Positions 25,169-43,284 of a stretch of DNA of 61,707 bases are shown here, piece by piece. The notes beneath the pieces were generated by a model. It did no database searches. It had not been told where the DNA came from and saw only the letters and a program-made list of their open reading frames with translations. Origin of the DNA: Thermodesulfovibrionia bacterium (GTDB lineage: Bacteria > Nitrospirota > Thermodesulfovibrionia > UBA6902); assembly GCA_947259645.1 (NCBI GenBank), contig CAMYND010000040.1:1-61707 (forward strand), written 5' to 3'. Positions within the stretch are counted from its first letter, which is position 1; every line of letters begins with the position of its first letter. The position numbers were made by a program, and so were the translations under genes.

Positions 25169-25381
25169 TTACTTGTCTTTCTTGCCTGTGCTGATACCTG
25201 CAAGGCGATAAAGCGGTCACCAGCCTACAGCGCCGGTGCCCAGCATTATCAAGCCCACAACAGTGACAACGACTGTTCCTGCACCGGGAGTAACCAGTTT
25301 AAAGACATACACGATGGCAAGGAGAATAACACCGAATAAAACCCGGACTATTCGATCTGTCTGTCCTACATTTGCTTTCAT
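25169..25381 (-). CDS. DUF2892 (YgaP-type) inner membrane protein, candidate selenoprotein
   Basis: The ATG at 25381 opens a small hydrophobic protein (MKANVGQTDRIVRVLFGVIL) matching the DUF2892 family. It has two membrane helices at about residues 14-32 and 36-52. The family ends in a GWCPLYxLLGIST-like motif. Here the Cys codon is TGA (25217-25219), and the frame goes on with PLYRLAGISTGKKDK to a TAA at 25169-25171. With the TGA read as selenocysteine the protein is 70 residues with Sec at 55; without it the conserved tail is lost. A SECIS-like hairpin starts 10 nt after the TGA. Other genes in the window stop at TGA, so general recoding is unlikely. DUF2892 functions are poorly known; some are fused to rhodaneses. 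A sequencing error or a pseudogene remains possible. Confidence 0.72.
25184..25206 (-). promoter_or_regulatory. SECIS-like hairpin after the UGA of the DUF2892 gene
   Basis: On the minus strand GCCTTGC (25206-25200) pairs with GCA-C-AGGC (25191-25184), giving seven pairs with one bulged C. The apical loop is AGGTATCA, with G at its second position. The loop begins 17 nt after the UGA. Published bacterial SECIS models require a G in the first two loop bases and a similar spacing; this site satisfies both. Confidence 0.6.
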
Positions 25382-25643
25382 CTCTTTTACACCCTTTCTC
25401 TTTTAGGTTTAAACCAAATATAACAGCTCACCCCATTGAAGTCAATCAGATACATTGGTCCTGTCAGGAGCAATACTCTGCATGTCCTGCTGCTCTGTTT
25501 TAAGGTCTGAACATCTGGGTGGTGCCTTTGAATAGCGAAAATGCGATTGAAGGGTTTGTAAGAACGGAAAGCTATCGATTTTCTTATTTTGTGATTCGCC
25601 TTGCACCTTGTTTTTTCTCATAATATCGTGATATAAAGAGCCT

Positions 25644-41757: not shown

Positions 41758-42348
41758 GTCTGGCCTCCTTCTGTTTGATTAAGGATTTTATTTATATCTA
41801 AAATGAATGACAGATGTCTGGACAAGAATGGAGTGCAGAGCAGAAAACAGATTAACTTCAGATACTGCACTATGGGAAGCGCGCTCATCATATGCTCAGT
41901 TACGTGCTACAGGGTTAACCATCTTTAATAGATTGATCAATAACTGAATCTGATGTTAAAGTGCTGTTAATGTACGTTAAGAAATTCTAATGTATTAGTT
42001 CTTACTGATGATCATAATTCTTTTAATATTGAATGGCAATCCGGTTAATAAGGGTATAAATATTTAATATTTATGAGAAATTGGAACTCATAATCAACGA
42101 TTCAGGAGAACAGCCGAGCCGGAATTGAAATTGTGCTTTAAATAGAATGAGGTTTAAATCTTCGTGAGAGATGGGGACCGGATTGGCGTCAGAATTATCA
42201 AGATTATGAGTTATTATGGTATAAATAATATTAATGTTTCGAGGATTCAGCGCTCCGGTTATTTGCCGGACAGCAGACAGAAAGGACGCTCTCTCATTAT
42301 CCTCCAAAATTTGCTATTATAATGCTCAATAAGAGATGAGGTTTTACG
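41758..42348. other. intergenic region between divergent napA and VKOR genes
   Basis: This 590-bp AT-rich stretch should contain the promoters of the nap operon and of the VKOR gene. A palindrome TTGATCAA lies at 41933-41940 but lacks the spacer of an FNR site. A minus-strand frame at 42071-42307 has no recognisable features and is not called. I see nothing else of note. Confidence 0.45.
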
Positions 42349-43284
42349 GTGGCTAAAAAGAAAAAACGCGCAAAGACATCCCCAAAGAAAACAGCAACCC
42401 CAAGGGAAACAAAGCCAGGGGAAAAACCATCTGTCCAGGATAGCGGGAGAAAGAAGCATTCTCAACAGAAGCAGGAACATCGGAACTGGCTTCTGACAGG
42501 ATTGGCTGGTGCTGGTATGGTGTTGACGGCATACCTTGTCATTACCGCCTGGCTGGGTGAAGCGCCGCTGTACTGCGATGAGGGTAGTTCCTGCGACATT
42601 GTCCAGCAAAGTCGTTGGGGTACGTTTCTGGGAATTCCAACAGCTTTCTTTGGGTTTGTGGTTTATGCTCTGCTGGGACATATCGGGTACAGGTTCCGTC
42701 AACCAGCAAAGCAGTGGAAATGGGCCTGGGCTTTTTCTTTGCTGGGACTGGTTTACAGTATTTATCTCAACCTGATTTCTTTCTTTGTGATTGAGGCGAT
42801 GTGTGCTTACTGTCTCCTTTCGCTGACAATAATGGCGACGATATTTGGAGTGGTTATTTACCAGCGGCCCGGCGCGGCTCGAGATTTTAAATTTAAAACC
42901 TGGGCCGGAGAGACTCTCATTGTAACACTCTTGATTGTCGGGGGGATGCACCTTCATTACAGTGGAGTATTTGATTCAAAAGCCGGCCCGGAAGATCCGT
43001 ACCTGAGAGGACTGGCCGAGCACCTTTCACAGGAAGAGGCGGTCATGTACGGAGCATTCTGGTGACCTGCCTGCGTGGAACAGAAGGATCTGTTCGAGGC
43101 ATCGGCTGACCGTCTTCCGTATGTGGAATGTTCTCCCAGTGGTCGAAAAGGGCCGGTGGCGGCTGTCTGCCGAAAGGAAAATATTAAGTCCTACCCAACA
43201 TGGGTCGTCAATGGGCAGCGGTATCAGGGGGTGCTAATGCCTGACCGTCTGGCCGTGCTTTCGGGATATAGCGGAGTGAAATAA
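42349..43284 (+). CDS. VKOR-thioredoxin fusion with in-frame UGA: candidate selenoprotein
   Basis: VKOR proteins reoxidise periplasmic disulfide-forming partners using quinone. After a Lys-rich leader the membrane part has the VKOR pattern: CDEGSSCDIVQQSRWG, LGIPTAFFGF and the active CAYCLLSLT. A thioredoxin-like domain follows, whose CxxC should read FWCPAC. Here the first Cys codon is TGA (43063-43065), giving FW-TGA-PAC, and the frame continues through VEQKDLFEASADRLPY and the cis-Pro motif SYPTWVVNG to a TAA at 43282-43284. Read as Sec, the protein is 311 residues with Sec at 239 in a Sec-x-x-Cys motif. A 7-bp hairpin follows at SECIS distance. The conserved 70-codon tail argues against a true stop. 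Start is a GTG with GAGG upstream. A point mutation is the alternative. Confidence 0.8.
43078..43095 (+). promoter_or_regulatory. SECIS-like hairpin after the VKOR UGA
   Basis: GAACAGA (43078-43084) pairs perfectly with TCTGTTC (43089-43095) around the loop AGGA, with G at loop positions two and three. The loop starts 19 nt after the UGA. TGCC at 43068-43071 can also pair with GGCA at 43098-43101 as an outer stem. This meets the published bacterial SECIS criteria on loop size, loop G and spacing. Confidence 0.7.

Follow-up and report, generated by a model that had tools for sequence, protein, structure and literature searches.

Does the in-frame UGA of a very small gene in a Thermodesulfovibrionia bacterium encode selenocysteine (Sec), and what would such a residue do in a membrane protein? 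The window referred to below is the whole stretch of 61,707 nt that was analyzed (contig CAMYND010000040.1 of assembly GCA_947259645.1), and "the class" is Thermodesulfovibrionia.

Identification of a UGA-containing PF11127 gene

The preliminary description proposed a 70-residue DUF2892 membrane protein in which TGA takes the place of the family Cys codon and the frame continues through PLYRLAGIST to TAA. Both parts are borne out. With the UGA read through, the product (MKANVGQTDRIVRVLFGVILLAIVYVFKLVTPGAGTVVVTVVGLIMLGTGAVGW-U-PLYRLAGISTGKKDK; local context ...GAVGW-U-PLYRLAGISTGKKDK) matches PF11127 (YgaP-like TM; the former DUF2892) over residues 1-68 with 75.6 bits and E=3.4e-21 (gathering cut-off: 25.3 bits), and the TGA is present at 25219-25217. 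As seen in Table 1, the gene lies on the minus strand; the plus-strand frame at 25169-25381 yields no PF11127 protein and was dismissed. PF11127 is the sole domain above the Pfam cut-off, the rhodanese domain being absent from the 70-residue product. A scan of the whole genome for PF11127 also found the window gene, with one TGA, and a scan of the window protein against NCBIfam 20.0 gave no matching model (a chance match alone, E=0.41). Genes of this kind are likely to be missed, or cut at the UGA, by ordinary annotation. As for GWCPLY, put forward earlier as the family motif, the window protein fits it, but the family is broader ([W/F/Y/H]-[C/U]-P, with Pro absent in one Cys subgroup).

Table 1. 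Features of the putative selenoprotein gene (window coordinates)
Feature	Position	Strand	Basis
Putative PF11127 selenoprotein gene, 70 residues, ATG to TAA inclusive	25169..25381	-	UGA-read-through translation and Pfam
Start codon ATG	25381-25379	-	sequence
In-frame UGA, inferred Sec, residue 55, family Cys column	25217..25219	-	sequence and homologue alignment
Stop codon TAA	25171-25169	-	sequence
Possible ribosome binding site, purine-rich GAGAAAGGG, 5' of ATG	25392..25400	-	inspection only
bSECIS-like hairpin GCCUUGC / AGGUAUCA / GCA(c)AGGC	25184..25206	-	7-bp stem, one bulged C
8-nt hairpin loop AGGUAUCA	25199-25192	-	17 nt after UGA
Predicted transmembrane helix 1, residues 5-30	25292..25369	-	AlphaFold2 single-sequence model and hydropathy
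Predicted helix 2, residues 35-62, Sec55 near its C-terminal end	25196..25279	-	AlphaFold2 single-sequence model and hydropathy

The window holds another frame with an in-frame TGA, which we mention separately: 42235-43281 on the plus strand (349 codons, TGA in the context ...GAFW-U-PACVEQ...) matches Pfam VKOR at residues 85-207 (E=8e-23). This is probably a VKOR-thioredoxin type protein with UxxC, and the first candidate selenoprotein of the preliminary description.

Recurrence of UGA at the family Cys column

PF11127 is present in 120 of 230 genomes of the class. Among the matches listed, one TGA occurs in each of 27 PF11127 genes, which come from 25 genomes; many of these genes are closely related, so that these counts do not amount to 27 independent events. 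In each of the 27 (among the matches listed) the UGA falls at the family Cys column, is followed by Pro, and is the sole internal stop. The host genome itself contributes a second, divergent PF11127 paralogue whose UGA occupies the same codon position (...VRF-U-PLWKVLGIST), and the other 25 UGA genes among the matches listed come from 24 other genomes, of which 23 have SelA and the last has tRNA-Sec. A family-level survey gave 7 PF11127 UGA rows in 6 genomes. Beyond the class, no TGA was found in PF11127 rows among about 120 matches listed, a search with the window protein found a single Cys relative (L011, in a Sphingomonadales MAG), and no relatives were found among plasmids (tblastn) or viral contigs; PF11127 was matched in 10 of 14 control genomes.

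Alternation of TGA, TGC and TGT at this codon had been suggested as a check on the Sec reading, and UGA, UGC and UGU all occur there among the homologues. This pattern bears on two rival explanations. One is that UGA is read as Trp or is unspecifically suppressed; all 47 tree rows without UGA have Cys at the aligned position, the Sec machinery is present, UGA functions as a stop in other parts of the window, and the hairpin described below has the bSECIS layout, all of which make this explanation extremely improbable. The other is that the sequence or its assembly is wrong, or that the gene is a pseudogene. The genomes are draft assemblies, and one UGA copy (L079 in G109) looks decayed, which speaks for such an artifact, but UGA recurs at one and the same position in 27 genes of 25 genomes (among the matches listed), including the host paralogue, which reduces the probability of this explanation to almost nothing.

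We also noted several irregular copies. In L079 (G109:C38) both the downstream motif and the hairpin look decayed, and it is possibly a dying selenoprotein gene or a sequence error. A weak PF11127-like match with one TGA was seen at G219:C78:6753-6875 (E=2.6e-6). The same-genus genome G010 has a tandem PF11127-like ORF without the Cys/Sec-Pro motif after its Sec gene (L038:1745-1945, L089:4218-4448), and G182 holds both Cys and Sec copies of the NWxPMM subfamily (G182:C3:4351-4536 and G182:C24:129-308).

Conservation after the UGA and Sec/Cys exchange

Protein-level conservation among the homologues continues past the UGA; its absence had been raised beforehand as a possible objection. In the FUPLW group (20 members), single-base differences in the codons past the UGA, summed over pairs, comprise 350 synonymous and 91 non-synonymous ones. 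In the per-codon listing, from which the decayed copy L079 was left out (19 of 20), residues P, L, W, V, L, G, S and T after the UGA are invariant in 19/19, and the codons GTG CTC GGG. AGC ACC are synonymously frozen (19, 18, 18, 19 and 19 of 19, respectively). These frozen codons make up the hairpin stem and loop, and outside them the Pro, Leu and Ile codons (1, 2 and 8) vary. Were the UGA an ordinary stop, the product would be a truncated protein of 54 residues, and UGA does end several long genes in the window as a normal stop. Against this stand the conserved protein tail past the UGA with synonymous change at its free codons, the 27 genes (among the matches listed) with UGA as lone internal stop in one column, and Cys orthologues that have the same tail in the same operon, so that termination at this codon is very unlikely.

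Sec and Cys forms were compared on a tree of 74 rows and 70 columns (the tandem ORF L038:1745 was left out). The Sec/Cys label needs four changes on this tree, at least three of them forced by well-supported branches. Cys genes L025 and L036 are nested in the Sec clade, nearest to the second copy of the host (support 99/93), and have a damaged hairpin stem; judged from sequence, they are a Sec-to-Cys reversion. UGA and UGC/UGU forms also alternate within one rhodanese-YeeE operon. The deeper forks of the tree do not resolve, and the window pair is joined to the FUPLW clade by a branch of weak support (85/8). Several lineages of PF11127 in the class use UGA, and the window gene would belong to one of them; orthologues elsewhere have Cys.

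A bSECIS-type hairpin downstream of the UGA

As reported in the preliminary description, a 7-bp stem with one bulge begins 10 nt past the UGA (25206-25184). According to the available text of PMC13188914, the published bSECIS model has a loop of 3-9 nt with G in the first two positions, a stem of 4-16 bp, a spacing of 16-37 nt and an energy of at most -7.5 kcal/mol. A bSECIS check had been called for, and the window hairpin fits this model in loop size, loop G, stem and spacing; its energy is -7.4 kcal/mol when folded alone, just short of the -7.5 cut-off, and -10.7 for the 45 nt after the UGA. Compared with synonymous recodings, the hairpin has p=0.037 (MFE p=0.090, not significant), and by itself it is only modestly unusual.

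The association with UGA emerges across the family. We counted a hairpin when its loop lay 16-21 nt after the codon and had G in the first two positions, with a stem of 5 bp or more and an energy of -6 kcal/mol or lower. Such a hairpin is found in 26 of 27 Sec genes (loop at 17-18 nt) versus 3 of 47 Cys genes, or 6 of 57 Cys genes when ten Cys orthologues of one subfamily are added; with the cut-off at -7.5, the numbers are 22/27 UGA genes and 2/47 Cys genes. Unrelated stems occupy the same place (GGUGCU/AGCACC, GCCUUGC/GCAcAGGC and AUCCUC/GGGGAU), and a same-genus version of the GCCUUGC stem (CCUUGCU/AGCAAGG) has its 3' arm shifted. Taken singly, hairpins of the NWxPMM subfamily mostly do not differ significantly from synonymous recodings (p of about 0.14-0.22 for four of five). 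Some NWxPMM Cys genes keep the hairpin (L031, L133, L135 and L141), which may reflect recent loss of Sec or partial coding constraint.

Selenocysteine machinery

The host genome encodes SelA (615 bits) directly followed by SelB (370 bits), a tRNA-Sec (72.4 bits, anticodon tca) and SelD. The host SelD gene (G000:C94:2026-2940, L123) has one in-frame TGA as well, and its product is probably a Sec-containing SelD. Among the matches listed, SelA was found in 24 of the 25 genomes with UGA genes; the exception, G020, has tRNA-Sec. tRNA-Sec was found in 17/25 UGA genomes by a search that scored only about 111 candidates in each. SelA occurs in 203 of the 230 genomes of the class, so its presence is not discriminating within the class; outside it, 8 of 80 genomes tested have SelA and 72 do not. 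Two tRNA-Sec-like genes above the Rfam cut-off were seen in each of G139, G170, G182 and G203.

Codon alternation, the UGA-linked bSECIS-type hairpin, the full Sec machinery and the conservation past the UGA all support the Sec reading offered in the preliminary description, and on this sequence evidence we consider the window gene a genuine selenoprotein gene with a probability of roughly 90%. SelB and tRNA-Sec would decode the UGA as Sec with the help of the hairpin just downstream. We found no report of DUF2892 or YgaP as a selenoprotein in open-access full text, and a 2026 table of 119 prokaryotic selenoprotein families (PMC13188914) has no entry for PF11127, DUF2892 or YgaP. The PF11127 selenoprotein family is apparently new to the literature, and it would add a very small integral membrane family that has neither a thioredoxin fold nor a CxxC-like motif.

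Predicted structure

The product is predicted to be a stand-alone YgaP-type TM domain of two helices, without rhodanese. The AlphaFold2 single-sequence model has a mean pLDDT of 71.9, with low confidence past residue 50, and hydropathy drops at about that point; Sec55 falls late in helix 2, and from the analogy to YgaP we infer that it may lie on the cytoplasmic side. A single-sequence search of solved structures gave no match, and the best match of a profile search was 2MPN (E=0.47, not significant alone). E. coli YgaP has only two cysteines, 64 and 159, and the Sec/Cys column aligns with Cys159; in the EPR model of YgaP, as presented in the available part of PMC4730233, TMH2 comprises residues 142-160, which puts Cys159 at its end.

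Genomic neighborhoods and possible function

The window gene stands alone: it adjoins an HD/GAF/PAS regulator and an unassigned ORF, beyond which comes MlaC, and no sulfur-gene neighbors were found at the locus. In the NWxPMM subfamily the gene order is conserved (rhodanese, YeeE/YedE sulfur transporter PF04143, the small protein, and a LolA-like protein), and the rhodanese has an apparent signal peptide (by eye). YeeE lies just upstream in Sec loci L129 and L130 (as a fragment in L132) and in Cys loci L131, L134, L135, L137 and L139. The genes around FUPLW members mostly differ from genome to genome; G072 and G188 both have SOD and a DsrC/TusE-like sulfur relay protein upstream of the FUPLW gene. 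Cys member L054 adjoins a rhodanese gene. The operon context provides a concrete set of candidate partners for PF11127 proteins.

Replacement of Cys by Sec usually marks a catalytic nucleophile, and so one residue of the widespread PF11127 family is singled out. A redox role for the motif had been suggested earlier; such a role is plausible, and the gene neighbors make sulfane-sulfur handling the more specific possibility. The reading we favor, tentatively, is that Sec accepts or reduces sulfane sulfur on the inner side of the membrane, because of the operon context, the homology to YgaP and the sulfide literature cited below; the sulfur chemistry comes from gene context and YgaP homology, and the role of the window gene is borrowed from other subfamilies. 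The selenolate, placed where helix 2 ends on the cytoplasmic side, would take up and pass on persulfide, or reduce reactive sulfur species, with rhodanese, YeeE/YedE and DsrC/TusE-type proteins as working partners.

The published observations, taken from the available portions of the papers, are mixed. Azospira Dsui_0042 (DUF2892) is among the most abundant transcripts and is up about tenfold during H2S oxidation, and its deletion has a minor effect only (PMC5358917). In E. coli, sulfide derepresses the ygaVP operon, and the in vivo substrates of YgaP are described as unknown (PMC9774250). Sulfane sulfur in the cells did not increase when ygaP was re-expressed (PMC10215317), which counts against a sulfur-producing role.

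The main functional rival is that the selenoprotein serves peroxide or oxidant defense, or metal or metalloid binding, and not sulfane-sulfur transfer. A lone Sec without a partner Cys also suits peroxidase chemistry, and the window protein has just such a lone Sec. Several neighbors are consistent with this role, namely the Fe/Mn SOD upstream in G188 and G072, a Fur-family regulator near the G055 gene, DJ-1/PfpI near that of G153 and YceI near that of G033. Most of these neighbors, however, are not common to several genomes, the only broadly conserved operon holds rhodanese and YeeE/YedE, and YgaP of the same family is fused to a rhodanese domain (available part of PMC4730233). We regard this rival as possible but not probable.

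The sulfane-sulfur reading could be extended, more speculatively, to the whole family: the helix-2 Cys/Sec might be a general membrane docking site for sulfane sulfur, which in the UGA lineages would pass through a per-selenosulfide (Se-S) intermediate from periplasmic rhodanese and a YeeE/YedE channel to acceptors in the cytoplasm such as DsrC/TusE. If true, this would place a selenoprotein step in sulfur import and account for Cys159 of YgaP.

Comparison with known systems

The window protein shares with E. coli YgaP (2MPN) the two-helix TM domain, in which YgaP Cys159 corresponds to the Sec column; YgaP in contrast has a cytosolic rhodanese domain and Cys, whereas the window protein consists of just the TM domain and uses UGA. 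Stand-alone Cys DUF2892 homologues of the class (L041 and L059) have the same domain and motif, but in the Cys homologues of the class Cys replaces Sec and most lack the downstream hairpin. Azospira Dsui_0042 is a stand-alone DUF2892 protein too, compared here by description only. With known bSECIS selenoproteins the gene shares UGA/Cys alternation, hairpin layout and Sec machinery; unlike them, its product has neither a thioredoxin-like fold nor UxxC/CxxU, and its lone Sec sits near the end of a membrane helix. The selenoprotein of the YeeE/YedE family (PF04143, GUxSG) is likewise a membrane protein of sulfur metabolism that uses Sec (PMC13188914), but it belongs to another family with another motif: in the loci studied here YeeE is an ordinary ORF, and it is the small neighbor that has the UGA.
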